Positions 11,966-21,301 of a stretch of DNA of 34,687 bases are shown here, piece by piece. The notes under the pieces were generated by a model. The model ran no database searches. It was not told the origin of the DNA and was given only the letters and a program-made list of their open reading frames with translations. A program made the translations under genes and the position numbers. Source of the DNA: a virus. The stretch is taken from IMG/VR virus record IMGVR_UViG_3300010293_000020, positions 1 to 34,687 of that record. The stretch is one strand, 5' to 3'. Within the stretch, counting starts at the first letter, position 1. Each line of letters starts with the position of its first letter.

Positions 11966-12304
11966 ATGCGCCTTTTGAATTACCTGGAAAAAGCACCTCT
12001 CACACCCGAGGCCAATACCTTTAGGGCCATGTCAATTAAACTGACAGACAAACCAAGGGACTATTCACCCATACTCAATGTCCTCAAAGAATCCAGTAAG
12101 ATAGACAACATTATCAGACGTATAAATATAGAACTCAAGAGCGTATACACCGGCAAATACAGCTTGGCTCTATGTTTGGAAGAGGGAATACAAACCGAAA
12201 AAATCAAGCTAAAAGATAAATGCATGGAAAAATTAAAAGAGCTACTATACGAATCCAACACAGAGCTGGCAAAGTTCAAAGAGTCCATCGAACAAAATCA
12301 ATAG
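11966..12304 (+). CDS. Small helical hypothetical protein
   Basis: A 112-residue protein starting one base after the previous stop. It is charged and mostly helical, and Lys/Glu-rich toward the C-terminus ('KIKLKDKCMEKLKELLYES'). No family is recognised. The first residues, MRLLNYLEKAPL, resemble the shared N-terminal motif of the minus-strand block at 23227-26340 ((R)L..Y(L/I)..E). However, it lacks a clean (L/I)-x-E site, so a capsid-targeting role is only a possibility. It is followed by a sigma70-like promoter that starts a new transcription unit. Confidence 0.6.
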   Translation: MRLLNYLEKAPLTPEANTFRAMSIKLTDKPRDYSPILNVLKESSKIDNIIRRINIELKSVYTGKYSLALCLEEGIQTEKIKLKDKCMEKLKELLYESNTELAKFKESIEQNQ

Positions 12305-12308
12305 CACA

Positions 12309-12337
12309 TTTACAAAGAAGTTTCAATATGTTACAAT
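12309..12337 (+). promoter_or_regulatory. Sigma70-like promoter for the gp55-like sigma gene
   Basis: TTTACA at 12309-12314, a 17-base spacer and TACAAT at 12332-12337 match the sigma70 consensus at 5/6 in each box. It lies in the only gap before the sigma factor ATG at 12370. This would let host RNA polymerase make the phage late sigma factor before late genes are on. Confidence 0.6.
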
Positions 12338-12369
12338 TACAATATCATCGTTGTATATCAGGAGGCTCA

Positions 12370-12876
12370 ATGGCGGTTAAGCGAAAACGATCAGTTAATT
12401 ATGTGGATCCAGTAGAATTGTTAGAGGAAGTCAAGAACTATAGAAGCACCGGTGTTTGTTCTAATAGGTTAGGTAAGTTGTTGTTGCTTATGGCCACTAA
12501 TTTCGCCTCAAAAGGAAATTGGTCCGGTTATACTTGGAAACAAGATATGATTTCCGAAGCGGTTCTAACCTGTGTAAAGTACCTCCAAAACTTTAACCCC
12601 GAAAAGTCTTCCAACGCATTTTCTTATGTTACTCAAATACTTGGTAACGCCTTCAAACTCACCATCATAAATGAGAAGAAACATATACACATTAAAAATA
12701 TATGTCATCAAGCCACAATGCTTACCCCATTTATGGAGGAGAGTTCATATAGTGAGAAATCGTTGGACTATGCCAGCATCCAAAACAGGGTAGCAGAGGA
12801 TCAGATAAACACCAAAGAAAAGCCAAACTATTTGTGGGTCGAGCCTTTACAACAACCTCAGAATATAGTACAATAA
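12370..12876 (+). CDS. 55: Late-transcription sigma factor, gp55-like
   Basis: Started at ATG 12370 behind AGGAGG (12360-12365), the product is 168 residues; T4 gp55 is 185. The order of conserved pieces matches gp55: 'VNYVDPVELLEEVKNYR' at the N-terminus, then 'RLGKLLLLMATNFASKGNWSG' and 'YTWKQDMISEAVLTCVKYLQNFNPEKSSNAFSYV', the region 2-like core (T4: '[26 protein letters not shown]'). gp55 binds host core RNA polymerase and, with the gp33 coactivator and the sliding clamp, recognises TATAAATA late promoters. One such site occurs in this window at 16573. An in-frame ATG at 12220 overlaps the previous gene and is a poorer start. Confidence 0.88.
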   Translation: MAVKRKRSVNYVDPVELLEEVKNYRSTGVCSNRLGKLLLLMATNFASKGNWSGYTWKQDMISEAVLTCVKYLQNFNPEKSSNAFSYVTQILGNAFKLTIINEKKHIHIKNICHQATMLTPFMEESSYSEKSLDYASIQNRVAEDQINTKEKPNYLWVEPLQQPQNIVQ

Positions 12877-12909: not shown

Positions 12910-13905
12910 TTGAAAGCTGTTGTTCTTTCGGACATACATATAGGGGTTCATAAAGACTCGGAGCCTTGGCTAAGTCAAACCAGATCACTGTTCAACAATA
13001 TAGCCGACACATGCATTAGGGAATCCATTAATACCATTATCGTGGCCGGTGATATGTTCCATGAAAGAAAATTCCTAAACATACAAACCATGTGCCGAAC
13101 AATGGAGATAATGCTGGGGCTTCACCAATTCAGGTTCCTCTTACTTGTTGGCAATCATGATACATATTACAAGCACATCGTTTGGCCTCATAGCCTATTT
13201 ATCTTTAATGAGCTACCTAACGTCCAAATTATATCGGAACCCACTGTTATAGAGGATTTGCTATTCTTGCCCTGGAGTACAAAGCCATACTCATTTTCCG
13301 ACTATAAAGAAAAGATTGTGGTTGGTCACTTTGAAATAGATGGCTTTCCGGCCACCTGTTCGGATAACTTCGTTGGGGGCTATAAAACCAAAGACTTTAC
13401 CCAGTTTGACCTGGTCATATCGGGCCATTTCCATGTGCCTTGTCGCCGGACAAACATCCTGTATTGTGGAAGCCCGTTCCACCTCACAGCCTCAGACAGA
13501 GGGTCAAAGTGTGGTTACTATATCCTCAACGGTAGCGATATTCACCAGATTGAAAATCCGGACTATGCCAGGTTCATCAGGATCACCACGGAGGATAAGG
13601 TTACTAGGGAGCTTATAGAGGGTAACATAGTGGAACTGTTGTATACCAAGGACTATGGTTCACTTGGCAATGTTAGACGCATGGAATATATACAGTCATT
13701 GAACCCCATGCGCTTAACGACAAACTTTACCAATGTATCTATATGTCAGATGGATCCACAGAAACAAGATCAGGTTGAAATTATCACCAAGAGCAATAGA
13801 GACATACTCAAGGAATACATTGATACCATTCATGTTCCTAAGCATATTAGGAAGGCTGTGCTGAATGGTATTGTGGATAAGCTACTAAAGGAGATTGGTA
13901 CCTAA
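12910..13905 (+). CDS. 47: Recombination endonuclease subunit gp47 (SbcD/Mre11-like)
   Basis: The protein has 331 residues and a TTG start nine bases after AAAGG. All phosphoesterase motifs are present: 'LSDIHIG' (D8, H10), 'VAGDMFHE' (D48), 'GNHDTYY' (N82, H83, D84), 'VVGHFEI' and 'ISGHFHVP'. These bind the two manganese ions of Mre11-type nucleases. In T4, gp47 pairs with the ATPase gp46 to resect DNA ends for recombination-dependent replication and host DNA breakdown. Here gp46 is encoded 2.4 kb downstream in two pieces. T4 gp47 is 339 residues, so this is full length. Confidence 0.92.
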   Translation: MKAVVLSDIHIGVHKDSEPWLSQTRSLFNNIADTCIRESINTIIVAGDMFHERKFLNIQTMCRTMEIMLGLHQFRFLLLVGNHDTYYKHIVWPHSLFIFNELPNVQIISEPTVIEDLLFLPWSTKPYSFSDYKEKIVVGHFEIDGFPATCSDNFVGGYKTKDFTQFDLVISGHFHVPCRRTNILYCGSPFHLTASDRGSKCGYYILNGSDIHQIENPDYARFIRITTEDKVTRELIEGNIVELLYTKDYGSLGNVRRMEYIQSLNPMRLTTNFTNVSICQMDPQKQDQVEIITKSNRDILKEYIDTIHVPKHIRKAVLNGIVDKLLKEIGT

Positions 13906-16063: not shown

Positions 16064-16354
16064 ATGGATAACGAAAAGGGTTCTATTTTTGTTAAAATTG
16101 CTACTTCCGTGGGGGAATTGGTTAAAGCTAAGAACGCCGCTTACGGGGACTCATTCTCCCAAAGCCATAGGATCATTGAGGTGCTATACCCTAATGGTGT
16201 TAAACCCGAGCAATACAGAGATATGCTAGCCACCATACGCATTGTTGACAAGCTCTTCCGAATTGCAAACCAGAAAGATTACGGGGACGAGTCGCCGTGG
16301 CGGGACGTCGCTGGTTATTCAATACTAGCCTTAGCTAACGAGGCACCTAAGTGA
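16064..16354 (+). CDS. DUF1599-like (nucleotide-modification-associated) protein
   Basis: A 96-residue protein. 'LVKAKNAAYGDSFSQSHRI' at the front and 'RIVDKLFRIAN...PWRDVAGYSILAL' at the end fit the DUF1599/NMAD1 pattern (K-x-x-x-YGDSF ... D-x-x-GY-x-x-L). That family is often found in phages near nucleotide metabolism or DNA modification genes. The role is unknown. Its stop overlaps the gp46 start by three bases (GTGA), so the two are likely translated together. Such a gene between 47 and 46 is plausible for T4 relatives. Confidence 0.65.
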   Translation: MDNEKGSIFVKIATSVGELVKAKNAAYGDSFSQSHRIIEVLYPNGVKPEQYRDMLATIRIVDKLFRIANQKDYGDESPWRDVAGYSILALANEAPK

Positions 16355-16572
16355 AAATTGAGTTCCAATCAACCACCTTCAAAAATTTCCTCACCTTCGG
16401 GAACAAAGAACAGCACCTTGAACTCAAGCCAGGTTTGACTCTTATTACAGGCCTGGACCATGCTACCGGTAGGTCTAATGGAGCGGGTAAATGTGTTGAG
16501 GGTTTTACAATGATAGATATATGTATAGAAGGTCAAGCGGAAACCGATTTTTTGACTTTCCTGCGCCGTTGA
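16351..16572 (+). CDS. 46: gp46 N-terminal fragment fused to a 26-residue split-intein N-half
   Basis: A 73-residue product with a GTG start after GAGG. Residues 1-47 are the SbcC/Rad50-type N-terminus ('MKIEFQSTTFKNFLTFG ... LTLITG') ending in the Walker A loop 'GRSNGAGK'. Residue 48 (codon 16492) is Cys and begins 'CVEGFTMIDICIEGQ', an intein block A. The frame stops at 16570-16572 after 26 intein residues. The missing Ser of the P-loop appears as +1 Ser in the C-terminal gene at 18064. So this is the N-extein plus a very short IntN of the atypical (about 25 aa, AceL-TerL-like) kind. Alone it cannot bind ATP; splicing is needed. Confidence 0.9.
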   Translation: MKIEFQSTTFKNFLTFGNKEQHLELKPGLTLITGLDHATGRSNGAGKCVEGFTMIDICIEGQAETDFLTFLRR

Positions 16573-16580
16573 TATAAATA
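16573..16580 (+). promoter_or_regulatory. T4-type late promoter ahead of the homing endonuclease gene
   Basis: TATAAATA at 16573-16580 is the exact T4 late promoter box and starts one base after the stop of the gp46 N-part. Transcription would begin about 10-13 bases downstream, leaving a short leader with GGAGG at 16597-16601 before ATG 16608. Intron- and intein-borne endonuclease genes in T4 also use late promoters. A gp55-like sigma encoded at 12370 would recognise it. Confidence 0.72.
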
Positions 16581-16607
16581 GATGTATCAAATAACCGGAG
16601 GTACATC

Positions 16608-17711
16608 ATGTCATCGAAAACATCAAGGTCATCAGGTTCACCATATACAGTAAAGCATTGGACCGACAAGGGTCTAACAGAAGAGGAAGCAAGGTGTGAA
16701 ATCCAAAAACGCCGGCCATCCAATATGCTTTACTGGACCAACAAAGGCTACAGTGAACCCGAAGCAAAACAAAAGGTTCGTGAACACCAAGGCCTTCGGA
16801 ACAAAAGCCGGCTGAAAACCAAAGAAACTGATCCGGATCAATACTATAAAAGTCATCCAACACGTATTGAATATTGGTTAGCTAAAGGATACAGTGTTGA
16901 AGATGCTAAATTGAAGCTTAGTGACCACCAAGCCACCTTCAATTTAGAAAAATGCGTCAAACGTTATGGTGAGCTAGAAGGCCAAAGAATTTGGCAAGAT
17001 CGGCAAGATAGATGGCAAAAAACCCTTAACAACAAATCAGATGAAGAAAGGGCTGCCATCAATAAAAAGAAAGATTGCATGAGCGTTGGGTTGTTTATTG
17101 AAAAATATGGTCCCGAGTTAGGTCCCTCAAAGTTCAAGGAGGAATGCAAAAAACGTTCCTGCTCATTGGAAAGTTATATCAAAAAATTTGGCGAAAGAGA
17201 GGGCCGTGAGAGATATAAGCAATTTAGGGAAAAAATTAGACGATCCAAGAGGTTTACAAATTCATCAATTTTTTCAAAGGAATCATTAGAGGTGTTTATA
17301 CCTCTCTATGAATGGTTGTTATCACGTAATTACAACCAAACAGACATCTTTATAGGATGTAATGAGCTGGGTGAATATCATCTTTTTGGAAATATGACAA
17401 GCATAAGTTCTGGAGACATGCTAACTAAGAACTATTTTTATGATTTCACTGTAAAAAGCCTAAACATTATGATTGAATATAATGGTGAAAGACATCATCC
17501 TAATCCATCAATGTCGGAAGAAAAATGGGAAAAATGGAGATCAGCGTTTGGTAAAAGAACCGCCGATGAGTGTCATAAATATCAAATGAACAAGATAGGA
17601 GTGGCAAGAAAGGCCGGATTTGATGTTTTGGAAATATGGTCATCTTCAAGTTTTACAAAAAATATAGAAATATGTAAGGAGTTCATTGCCAAACATGAAC
17701 ATAAGTTGTAA
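16608..17711 (+). CDS. Free-standing homing endonuclease, Vsr/EDxHD-like, nested in the split gp46
   Basis: A 367-residue protein. The C-terminal core has 'YDFTVKSLNIMIEYNGERHHPNP' (D279, E290, H296-H297) and 'ADECHKYQMNKIGVARKAGFDVLEIW'. This is a Vsr-like nuclease layout as in the EDxHD homing endonucleases described between split-intein genes (I-Bth0305I type). The N-terminal part is repetitive. Three copies of W-x-x-K-G-(L/Y)-(S/T)-x-x-(E/D)-A lie near residues 13-100. Three copies of K-(R/Y/F)-(Y/F)-G-x-x-x-G follow (residues about 115-225), probably DNA-contacting repeats. It has its own late promoter and ribosome site. Its last 17-26 bases overlap the start of the gp46 C-terminal gene. 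Confidence 0.88.
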   Translation: MSSKTSRSSGSPYTVKHWTDKGLTEEEARCEIQKRRPSNMLYWTNKGYSEPEAKQKVREHQGLRNKSRLKTKETDPDQYYKSHPTRIEYWLAKGYSVEDAKLKLSDHQATFNLEKCVKRYGELEGQRIWQDRQDRWQKTLNNKSDEERAAINKKKDCMSVGLFIEKYGPELGPSKFKEECKKRSCSLESYIKKFGEREGRERYKQFREKIRRSKRFTNSSIFSKESLEVFIPLYEWLLSRNYNQTDIFIGCNELGEYHLFGNMTSISSGDMLTKNYFYDFTVKSLNIMIEYNGERHHPNPSMSEEKWEKWRSAFGKRTADECHKYQMNKIGVARKAGFDVLEIWSSSSFTKNIEICKEFIAKHEHKL

Positions 17712-20103
17712 TGTTCAATCCATATGTGAATTTTATAGTATGTATCCTGAGCATATTGGACAAATTTCTGTCCACACACCATATGGATATAAAAAGGTAT
17801 TAGCGGCAGAGAAAGTGGAGGTTAATTCCCCCACACACCACATAAAAACCGTCAATCACTCACTTACGTGCTCTCCCGAACATCGAATTTGGTCGGATGG
17901 ATGGAAATTTGCCAAAGACATAAACATAGGAGATATAGTATCCACTATCTCTGGAGATGAAAAAATTGTTATTTCGTCTCCCTTGGAAACAAGACAAGAC
18001 CTATATGACATTCAAGTCGAAGATGTGGAACAATACTATTCCAATGGCATTCTCTCGCATAACTCTGCTTGCCTGGATTCCATTTGTTTTGGCCTATATG
18101 GCCGAACGAACAGGTCGGTGCTCAAGGATCGCATCGTAAACTGGAAGAACCGCAAAAACTGTGAGGTTACAGTTCGGTTCAAGATAGGAGCTAACCAATA
18201 CAAGGTATCCAGAGGCATAAAACCGGACTTCCTGGAAATCTATAAGGATGGGAAGCTGATACCCCAACCACCTGATGTACGTCAATACCAGAAGATGCTG
18301 GAAACAGACATCTTAAAAATTGACTACCAGATGTTCGTTAGCCTGGTACATATCAACCTCAACCACTATGTACCGTTCCTTCAGATGGACCTACCAAGGA
18401 AACGGGCTTTCATTGAAAAAATGTTTGGCCTGGAAATGTTCTCCGACCTCAACCGGTTAGTTAATGAAAAACTCAATATGATGGAAAATCAACTCAATAT
18501 CCATAATGCTGAGAACACATTGAAAAGCAAGCTGAGGTCAGACGCGGAGCATAAGGCCAGTATACTCAAGGGACAGCTTCGAGAACTCAGATCGTCCAGG
18601 CCGGAATTAAAGAAGGTTGTAGACCGACTCAGCAAATATAGTGATACCAAGGGGTCCATGACTGCCTTAGAATCTTCCGGAGCCGAGCTGGAGCGTCAAA
18701 AGGTTGACCTGGATCAACAGCTTACCAAGCTTACAACCAGCATAGACTTTCTTGATAAGGAACGTATAGCAATTGAAGATTCCATCATAAAAAAGTCACG
18801 AGATATAGACCAACATAGAGCATCCAGAGATCGGTTCAAAAAAATAATCTCAGAAAATAAGAATATTGATAAAAAAGTGGAACTAGAACAGGAAAGGCTC
18901 TCCATCATTGAGAAGGAGCTATCCGACTTAAACACCAAACTGAATGGTTATAATATATCCTTGGCCGAAGCCCAGGTAAGCTTAGACCATTATACAACCA
19001 ATCTTCATACATTATCAGGAGAAACTGAGTGTCCTGTGTGTATGAACAAGATTGACAAAGGTGTTATATTACCAAACATACAGGGACTAATTGACAAAAA
19101 CGCTGAGGTAGTTAAAACACTAACAGGTGACATAGAGAAGTCACGCTCCAGGGTGAATGTTTTGGAAAATGATCGGTCCCACAACACATTAGACCAATTA
19201 ATAAAGGATCGATCTCAATATCACGAAGCTAGGTCTAAACTGGAAAACATTGCCACAATAATCAAGTCCATAGATATATCATCCGATAGAAAAAGGTTGG
19301 TGGAGATCAATAAGGATTTAGACACCTATCAAATTGACCAAAAAGTGCTTGCAGAAAATCTCAGAAAATTGAAAAATCTCATTGAAAAAAATACACAAGA
19401 ACTCACGGAACTAAAGTCCCAGATAGAGTCCCATGATAAACTTCTCACCCAAAAAAAGGTTCTGGAGGAAAAGGTTGCATGGGAAGATAAGACCAAATCT
19501 GACCTACAGACACAAGTCAAACAAATTGATGAGGAATTGGTAAACCTAGGAAAGGACCTCAAGAGGATAGATGAATCCGTTACCAAGCTTTCAACCCTCA
19601 AAGACTATGTGAGTTATGTCAAGACCCTCTGTAAGGATGATAATGTCAAACAATATGCCATCGCGTCCATATTACCTTACCTGACTAAGAAGATCAATGA
19701 GTACCTATCACGGGCCGGCATGAACTACTTTGTCAATTTCACCAAAGCGATGGAGGATGAAATCAAGGGACCGGGAATCTATAACGCCTCATATAGTAAC
19801 CTATCTGGCGGGGAAGCTCGAAGCTGTGATTTAGCTATTCTGTTTGCCTTACTGGATATAAGCAGGACCCAGTTTGGTGTGTTCCCGGACTTTTTGCTTC
19901 TGGATGAATTGTTGGATTCGTCTGTGGACAGCAAAGGTTTAGATTCTGTACTAAAAGTAGTATGGCTACGACAAAAGGAAGACAACGGAAAAATATACAT
20001 CGTCACCCATAGGACCAGTGATTTTACTGATTTGGCGGAACTAAAAATGATCCGGGTTGAAAAGGAGGGTGGCTTTAGCACCATTAGTGAAATCCAAGAT
20101 TAA
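17695..20103 (+). CDS. 46: Split-intein C-half fused to the gp46 C-terminal part (SbcC/Rad50-like)
   Basis: Residues 1-123 (from ATG 17695; TTG 17686 is possible, with AAGGAG at 17676-17681) are IntC. They hold a block B-like 'SLTCSPEHRIW...GWKFAKDINIGDIV' and the C-terminal 'LYDIQVEDVEQYYSNGILSHN'. Asn is at 18061, followed by +1 Ser at 18064. The C-extein starts 'SACLDSICFGLYG', completing Walker A. Long coiled coils flank a zinc hook 'CPVC' (codons 19030, 19039). The ABC signature 'LSGGE' is at 19801, Walker B 'FLLLDE' with D at 19903, D-loop 'SSVDSKGLD' and H-loop 'IVTHR'. The spliced protein would be 47+679=726 residues; T4 gp46 is 560. Confidence 0.92.
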   Translation: MNISCNVQSICEFYSMYPEHIGQISVHTPYGYKKVLAAEKVEVNSPTHHIKTVNHSLTCSPEHRIWSDGWKFAKDINIGDIVSTISGDEKIVISSPLETRQDLYDIQVEDVEQYYSNGILSHNSACLDSICFGLYGRTNRSVLKDRIVNWKNRKNCEVTVRFKIGANQYKVSRGIKPDFLEIYKDGKLIPQPPDVRQYQKMLETDILKIDYQMFVSLVHINLNHYVPFLQMDLPRKRAFIEKMFGLEMFSDLNRLVNEKLNMMENQLNIHNAENTLKSKLRSDAEHKASILKGQLRELRSSRPELKKVVDRLSKYSDTKGSMTALESSGAELERQKVDLDQQLTKLTTSIDFLDKERIAIEDSIIKKSRDIDQHRASRDRFKKIISENKNIDKKVELEQERLSIIEKELSDLNTKLNGYNISLAEAQVSLDHYTTNLHTLSGETECPVCMNKIDKGVILPNIQGLIDKNAEVVKTLTGDIEKSRSRVNVLENDRSHNTLDQLIKDRSQYHEARSKLENIATIIKSIDISSDRKRLVEINKDLDTYQIDQKVLAENLRKLKNLIEKNTQELTELKSQIESHDKLLTQKKVLEEKVAWEDKTKSDLQTQVKQIDEELVNLGKDLKRIDESVTKLSTLKDYVSYVKTLCKDDNVKQYAIASILPYLTKKINEYLSRAGMNYFVNFTKAMEDEIKGPGIYNASYSNLSGGEARSCDLAILFALLDISRTQFGVFPDFLLLDELLDSSVDSKGLDSVLKVVWLRQKEDNGKIYIVTHRTSDFTDLAELKMIRVEKEGGFSTISEIQD

Positions 20104-20132
20104 TTGACAAATCACCAATACTATGATAAACT
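20104..20132 (+). promoter_or_regulatory. Sigma70-like promoter for uvsX
   Basis: A perfect TTGACA (20104-20109), a 17-base spacer and TAAACT (20127-20132, 4/6) lie directly after the gp46 stop. The uvsX ribosome site AAGGAG (20144-20149) follows. This could keep early expression of the recombinase independent of the interrupted gp46 genes upstream. Confidence 0.55.
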
Positions 20133-20155
20133 ATAAAAACACTAAGGAGAATCAA

Positions 20156-21301
20156 ATGGACCGTAAAGAACTAATGGACAGGAGTGAATTGATAAAATAT
20201 ATTGCCGGGAATGCCCGCGGAAGCCACATAAGTTTGATGACCGAGAGCGATATAGCCAATGTGGGTGATGTAATCAAGACCCCAGCACTGGACCTCAATC
20301 GGATACTATCTGGTAACCTGTATAAGGGTATACCGAGTCGAAACTTGGTAGGCATAGTGGGTAAGTATGGAACCTTCAAGAGTTCCTTCTCCGCGCTGTG
20401 TATGGCTGAGGCCATAAATCATGGCTACCAGCCAATCATCATTGATACCGAGGGTGCGATGTCCAGTGATTTTTGTGCCAGATGGGGTCTGGATGTATCT
20501 AAAACCATTTATATATCTGAGACCTATGTCGAACGGGTAATGGCAATTTTGGCTCAACTCAAGGAATCTGGTCAGGAAAAGATGATTATCACGATTGACT
20601 CTATTGGTGGTCTTGATAGGTATAAAGCCTTCAAGGATGCCTTAGATGATGATGCCAAGTTGGACCAGGGTCAGCTCCAAAGAAATATCAAGCAAATGCT
20701 GAAACTGCTCTTGAACATCTGTATCCATCAGAATTCCATAGGTATAATTACAGCCCACTACTATGCCAAACCTGGAGCCTATGTTACCACGGATGAGGTG
20801 GCCGGAGGTGAGTCGGTTAAGTATGTTCCAAGCATACTCATTTCACTCAAGCGGGTATCATTGAAGGGTGAAGAAAAACAGGAGAGTAGTGAAATTACAG
20901 CCACAACCATCAAGAACCGGATGTATCCACCATTTCAAACCGCCACAATTCGGGTTGACTATACATCAGGCATCCAACAGTATGCCGGCCTCTTGGATCT
21001 GGCAATCAAGGCAGGTATAGTAACGGTGAGTGGTAACACCCATAAGTTTGGTGAGGTATCATTGGGTGTAGGCGCTGGCCGGGCGGAGGAAAACCTTGGT
21101 AAGCATCCGGAGATCCTAACCAAGCTGAATGATTGGCTCAAAACCACTGGGTATTCCTCCAGAGCGACCAATATAGACCCTATGCTGCTTACCGGTCAAA
21201 GTATAGAAGAAGCAGAGGAAACGACACCAGAGGAGAAAGAAATCAAACTGGCGCTCAAGCCTACCAAGGCTCGGAAAGCCAAGTCCCTAAAGCGGAAATA
21301 A
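20156..21301 (+). CDS. uvsX: UvsX/RecA-like recombinase
   Basis: A 381-residue protein started at ATG 20156, five bases after AAGGAGA; the upstream in-frame ATG at 20123 lacks a ribosome site. Walker A is 'GIVGKYGTFKSS' (G69-K75-S76; T4 UvsX has 'GPSKSFKS'). Walker B-like 'MIITIDSIGG' follows, then 'GIITAHYYAKPGAYVTTDEVAGGESVKYVPSI', the loop region of UvsX. The acidic then basic tail ('EEAEETTPEEKEIK', 'KARKAKSLKRK') is typical. T4 UvsX is 391 residues. It forms filaments on single-stranded DNA and pairs homologues, using ends made by gp46/gp47 encoded upstream. Confidence 0.95.
   Translation: MDRKELMDRSELIKYIAGNARGSHISLMTESDIANVGDVIKTPALDLNRILSGNLYKGIPSRNLVGIVGKYGTFKSSFSALCMAEAINHGYQPIIIDTEGAMSSDFCARWGLDVSKTIYISETYVERVMAILAQLKESGQEKMIITIDSIGGLDRYKAFKDALDDDAKLDQGQLQRNIKQMLKLLLNICIHQNSIGIITAHYYAKPGAYVTTDEVAGGESVKYVPSILISLKRVSLKGEEKQESSEITATTIKNRMYPPFQTATIRVDYTSGIQQYAGLLDLAIKAGIVTVSGNTHKFGEVSLGVGAGRAEENLGKHPEILTKLNDWLKTTGYSSRATNIDPMLLTGQSIEEAEETTPEEKEIKLALKPTKARKAKSLKRK

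Follow-up and report, generated by a model that had tools for sequence, protein, structure and literature searches.

We analyzed gene 46 of a phage whose DNA is available as a 34,687-bp linear IMG/VR record, IMGVR_UViG_3300010293_000020; this whole stretch is referred to as the window. The phage is T4-like; baseplate genes, a gp55-like late sigma factor, gp47, gp46 and uvsX lie in one neighbourhood. We observed that gene 46, which encodes an SbcC/Rad50-like ATPase, consists of two half-genes, with the break placed between K and S of the Walker A motif (GK/S, the slash marking the break). Very probably gene 46 is a fractured gene whose products are trans-spliced, and the homing endonuclease within it is expressed late. 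The anatomy of the locus, its homology, fold and exact site, its recurrence in relatives and the promoter box in front of the homing endonuclease gene (HEG) are established.

An earlier note on this DNA had claimed that the first gene ends GAGK-Cys1 with 26 intein residues, that the second carries an intein end, SHN, before the +1 Ser completing GK-S, and that a complete EDxHD-like endonuclease lies between them. The three open reading frames (ORFs) agree with this description. ORF 1 (16351-16572, + strand) starts with GTG and encodes 73 aa, namely 47 aa of gp46 ending SNGAGK and the 26-aa N-terminal intein half (IntN), which reads CVEGFTMIDICIEGQAETDFLTFLRR and is followed by TGA. ORF 2 (16608-17711, +) starts with ATG and is an uninterrupted HEG of 367 aa, in a reading frame different from those of ORF 1 and ORF 3; the Vsr/I-Bth0305I fold of its product is predicted by modelling. 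ORF 3 (ATG 17695 to 20103, +) encodes 802 aa, of which the first 123 form the C-terminal intein half (IntC), ending SHN and followed by the +1 Ser. We preferred ATG 17695 as its start and regard the program-listed TTG at 17686 as a mechanical call. The HEG and IntC genes overlap, each with its own start. ORF 1 and ORF 3 are in one frame, and there are 22 stops within the intervening gap. Therefore a single frameshift or sequencing slip is ruled out as the cause of the split. Up to position 17147 the window is matched letter for letter by another IMG/VR contig, of 17,147 bp, which may be the same assembly.

We considered whether gene 46 could be a dead pseudogene, decayed after an insertion, as would be conceivable for a metagenomic fragment known from sequence alone. 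This is highly improbable: all three ORFs are open, gp46 retains its Zn-hook, signature and Walker B, an SD-like (Shine-Dalgarno-like) AAGGAG accompanies the IntC gene, and the layout is retained in relatives at 48% identity or less. Splicing at the RNA level, with the HEG inside a group I or other intron, has a next to negligible probability. Phage HEGs are often found in group I introns, but no Rfam intron match was found across the whole window, the HEG and IntC genes overlap with starts of their own, and the site and its flanks are of intein type.

Both halves of the gene matched PHROG_77 (SbcC-like), the N half with E 1e-5 and the C half with E 6e-86. Together they make up a split ABC ATPase with Zn-hook, signature and Walker B, and gp47 is encoded nearby. 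The computed joining of the exteins gave 726 aa, the product length predicted in the earlier note, and this joined gp46 aligned at GAGK/S with neither gap nor surplus to those of KVP40, P-SSM4, S-MbCM100 and a Herellevirus. Comparison with relatives free of the insertion had also been proposed; GK/S was uninterrupted in 80 of 80 gp46 loci obtained by a gp46 profile search of IMG/VR viral contigs. We looked for a mark of HEG target choice in the codon of the +1 Ser and saw none: TCN was used in 85% of these 80 empty sites and in 9 of 10 fractured ones (p = 1).

One conserved gene was thus found as two ORFs, with intein halves at the break and an endonuclease gene in between. Fractured genes, as reportedly described by Dassa et al. 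2009 (NAR 37:2560), are phage enzyme genes broken by a split intein, with a Vsr/EDxHD-type endonuclease gene between the halves; eight host enzyme types are said to be affected, and some of the genes are said to have their own control elements. Window gene 46 belongs to this known kind. It shares this layout, and its host is gp46/Rad50, as the earlier note had proposed. We found no report of an intein in gp46, Rad50 or phage SbcC in the papers searched, of which Dassa 2009 was not one.

The two halves might instead act unspliced, as a two-subunit ATPase in which the intein remnants serve as docking tags. Split inteins do bind each other, and the split NrdA of phage Aeh1 works unspliced (PMC2988022). 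Unlike the break in gp46, however, that split does not cut any P-loop. Here the break lies in the P-loop between K and S, 26 + 123 extra residues would stand in the nucleotide site, and those fractured relatives that were read retain the splicing residues (Cys1/Ser1, HN, +1 Ser/Thr). We therefore regard an unspliced enzyme as very unlikely.

The intein nature of the flanks was recovered by the profile search that had been suggested as a check. Pfam Intein_splicing matched IntC with E 5e-7, and among inteins of solved structure the IntC profile matched gp41-1, Cat and VidaL, with E 1e-14 to 1e-13 (CatC, E 6.5e-14). The residues are those of a class 1 intein: Cys1, block B SxxH (His63), terminal HN and +1 Ser. 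His63, D105 and HN were conserved across 33 IntC relatives, and Cys1 in 12 IntN. The P-loop position between K and S or T is a favoured intein site (PMC5050341). Atypically split inteins have an IntN of 15-37 aa and a long IntC (PMC13014065), and with 26 + 123 aa the window intein falls in this range.

The earlier note had further called the intein AceL-TerL-like. This holds for the length class of IntN, and fails for the split site. AceL-TerL and GOS-TerL break after helix alpha1 (site S2; PMC13014065), while VidaL and PolB16 break at S1, right after beta2, so that helix alpha1 stays in IntC. The AlphaFold model of IntC (pLDDT 94, IntC part only) has a Hint fold and is best matched by VidaL (PDB 6vgv; Z 16.8, rmsd 1.9 over 118). 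Residue 1 of the model corresponds to residue 13 in the inteins of RecA and DnaB, and model residue 2 to residue 12 of gp41-1, while Cat IntC aligned only from model residue 9. Since residue 1 falls on residue 13 of RecA and DnaB and Cat aligns only from residue 9, the break would lie directly after beta2. Helix 7-16 (alpha1) sits in IntC, and by structural alignment of IntC alone the model places the split at S1, after canonical residue ~12, as in VidaL and PolB16 and not as in AceL-TerL. The IntN of VidaL and of PolB16 OarG, which share this split, are 16 and 15 aa long, whereas that of the window has 26 aa (~12 needed and a 14-aa tail), and the host gene differs. AceL-TerL, GOS-TerL and Cat share the IntN length class (25-37 aa), a homologous IntC and, in TerL relatives, the Walker A site. 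In contrast to their S2 split, the gp46 intein keeps helix alpha1 in IntC. A 34% identical IntC homolog was found in the TerL inteins of Ackermannviridae (e.g. Klebsiella phage Magnus), which are inserted in Walker A at GK/T; unlike the split gp46 intein they are contiguous, lack a HEG and reside in another gene.

The window HEG had no Pfam match, while its sister proteins matched MTES_1575 and DUF559. The model of residues 221-365 matched Vsr (Z 9.8) and I-Bth0305I (Z 9.6, rmsd 2.5, 94/97 residues), the next-best fold having Z 7.8. D279, E290 and H297, candidate catalytic residues, were invariant across 11 relatives. By its modelled fold the product is an EDxHD/Vsr-type homing endonuclease, which would cleave and home. 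It has the nuclease-domain fold in common with I-Bth0305I, the EDxHD prototype, while the N-terminal modules differ and the sequence match is undetectable. The best-conserved part of the HEG family comprises ~70 residues N-terminal to the nuclease domain (motif IEYWL..GYS..EAK ... RQDRWQKTLNNKSDEE). The nuclease domain is swapped within the family: judged by eye, it is GIY-YIG-like in L129 and L131 (L plus a number denotes a locus) and HNH-like in free-standing members, and Pfam MUG113 matched 2 of 14 members. In the fractured TerL of L129 (2853-3875) and L131 (475-1566) the GIY-YIG-like domain replaces the Vsr-type one and the core module is kept.

Further, we looked at the control of the HEG. 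The spacer from the IntN stop to the HEG start contains TATAAATA (16573-16580), which we take to be the T4 late promoter box. It was present in the spacers of the window, L135, L137 and L139, that is in 4 of 5 comparable loci (chance ~2e-9). In the predicted RNA fold, the hairpin arm that holds TATAAATA is base-paired with the start codon of the HEG and with some of its SD. A similar hairpin folds in L137 (z -3.1) and L139 (z -4.5), and not in L136. I-TevI, segB and mobE have a late promoter and a hairpin; read-through transcripts made early keep the ribosome-binding site or start closed, and late transcripts leave it open (PMC2988022). The window resembles this scheme in having a late promoter immediately 5' of the HEG and a start-hiding hairpin; unlike those genes, its HEG lies inside a split-intein gene, and control there is predicted.

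Taken together, the half-proteins would be made separately, and IntN with its Cys1 would dock into IntC. Class 1 protein trans-splicing would then link Lys47 to the +1 Ser and give an intact P-loop GAGKS in a 726-aa Rad50-type ATPase, the partner of the nearby gp47. Without trans-splicing the phage would probably have no working Rad50-type ATPase. The endonuclease would cleave gene 46 alleles that lack the intein, at or close to the codons for Walker A, and as a result the HEG would be copied in along with both intein halves. With its own late promoter and inhibitory hairpin, the HEG may stay silent in early read-through transcripts and be made late.

Several points weigh against this reading. 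Splicing and cleavage are deduced from sequence and models, and since the contig covers a fragment of 34.7 kb, a second, intact gp46 copy may exist elsewhere. Block B reads SxxH in place of TxxH, and the window IntC lacks the block F His, as does the active Cat. HEG searches by sequence alone were weak. The window hairpin was just mildly better than shuffles (z -1.5).

Features of the fractured gene 46 and its neighbours in the window (feature, position, strand, evidence).
gp46 N-extein, 47 aa, ends GAGK (first part of Walker A)	16351..16491	+	phrog_77 1e-5
IntN, 26 aa, Cys1, block A CVEGFTMIDI; stop TGA 16570-16572	16492..16569	+	
T4-type late-promoter box TATAAATA 5' of HEG	16573..16580	+	
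Predicted RNA hairpin over HEG start codon	16567..16616	+	folding, dG -13.5
HEG, 367 aa; SD GGAGG 16597-16601	16608..17711	+	
Conserved HEG-family module, residues ~83-155, presumed DNA-binding	16854..17072	+	
HEG nuclease domain, residues 221-365, Vsr / I-Bth0305I fold (modelled)	17268..17702	+	structure model
AAGGAG, possible IntC-gene ribosome-binding site, within HEG 3' end	17676..17681	+	
IntC, 123 aa, ends HN; Hint fold, helix 7-16, all strands after beta2	17695..18063	+	
gp46 C-extein, 679 aa from +1 Ser; Zn-hook CPVC, LSGGE signature, Walker B LLLDE	18064..20103	+	
gp47 (SbcD/Mre11-like) partner gene, undisturbed	12910..13905	+	phrog_100 2.6e-58
gp55-like late sigma factor; would read TATAAATA promoters	12220..12876	+	phrog_234 1.8e-32
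UvsX-like recombinase, undisturbed	20123..21301	+	

A putative phage metallopeptidase (15465-16061; Pfam PhageMetallopep 4.7e-17) is encoded between gp47 and gp46.

The arrangement is widespread among uncultured phages. We identified 58 gp46/SbcC-like loci fractured at Walker A, with or without a HEG, which fall into 28 clusters at 80% identity; locus counts are not independent samples. All but one of them (57/58) come from IMG/VR, while L294 is a contig of a bacterial metagenome-assembled genome. Relatives found through IntC lie in gp46 or SbcC-like genes in L134/L135, L136-L140, L149-L151, L162 and L185. Their N-genes end GK/C or GK/S, with an IntN of 23-31 aa, or 55-58 aa in the SbcC-like ones. 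The gp46 half-genes of L135, L136, L137 and L139 match those of the window and have a HEG. As relatives have the same two half-genes at the same residue, chance is excluded. Among the matches listed from a joint query of 50,697 phage records, none spanned both IntC and gp46. The first IntC matches, L002 (3408-5456) and L003 (3405-5456), are tail-fibre-like proteins with a C-terminal Hint-like domain (CLAPETQVFTKSGWKFAKDINIGD...), and were set aside as irrelevant. Vibrio phage vB_VmeM-32 was rejected as the same case: its UvsX has a canonical split intein, and the HEG relative lies ~2 kb downstream.

Most HEG-family members were located between IntN and IntC halves at a Walker A. Where the 3' flank of the HEG could be seen (80 loci), an IntC lay just downstream in 68. 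In the remaining 12, the HEG stands directly before intact gp46 (8 loci), in other contexts (3 loci), or after an IntN with IntC not found (L286). Free-standing HNH-like HEGs immediately before an intact, intein-free gp46 were seen in L223, L225, L226, L230, L234, L236, L242, L245 and L252; L245, the ninth, is cut by the contig end and is outside the 80-locus count. This form is possibly a stage before capture or after loss. An intein of the same family as that of the window also splits gp46 in L138 (3603-4366) and L185 (3663-4369), where the two halves have no HEG between them.

These two kinds of loci would also fit a HEG that is a mere passenger, homing elsewhere or inactive, beside an intein that does trans-splice. 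We consider this fairly unlikely, because D279, E290, H297 and the fold are intact and 68 of 80 family members reside within fractured genes.

Other fractured hosts of the HEG family are TerL, PhoH, Clp-like and clamp-loader-like genes. In Pseudomonas phage Paride (L015, 1203-4248), UvsX is cut in Walker A at G/SGKS, with a 17-aa IntN and a family HEG between the halves; this locus is annotated merely as UvsX-like and hypothetical. In LR756500, an unannotated huge phage (L005, 3554-6816), PhoH is cut in Walker A at G/TGK, with a 26-aa IntN, HEG and IntC. The gp41 helicase of L173, L177, L191 and L199 holds contiguous relatives of the window intein at GK/S or GK/T, and in other contigs the gp41 intein is split, so that one site has both cis and trans forms. 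According to PMC13014065, PolB16 is the sole natural cysteine-less atypically split intein. The SbcC-like gene of L140 (2576-2869 and 3932-4306) has a Ser1/+1 Ser split intein with no Cys in IntN (56 aa) or IntC (123 aa).

In the phylogeny, 10 S1-type gp46 inteins formed one group (98/93) adjoining the gp41 inteins, and the window intein grouped with L134, L136 and L138 (98/80). The S2-type gp46 inteins (L115, L120) clustered with TerL inteins. This grouping suggests at least two invasions of gp46 by inteins; a single origin of all gp46 inteins was not firmly rejected (AU test, p 0.07). With somewhat less than even confidence, we propose that one HEG family, with a conserved core and interchangeable Vsr/EDxHD, GIY-YIG and HNH nucleases, tracks the DNA that codes for Walker A in phage ATPases unrelated to one another (gp46, TerL, PhoH, Clp-like, clamp-loader-like) and moves atypical split inteins from one to the next, the free-standing HNH form beside gp46 being the stage before capture or after loss.

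In summary, the Rad50/SbcC ATPase of phages, with the break in its catalytic loop, joins the genes held by natural split inteins, and its fracture is common, not exceptional. The new split inteins with a short IntN, and the cysteine-free one with a longer IntN, may serve protein chemistry. Four states were found at one site: empty, a free HEG beside the intact gene, a HEG in a split intein, and a split intein without HEG. Therefore the origin of fractured genes and split inteins is testable at a single locus.
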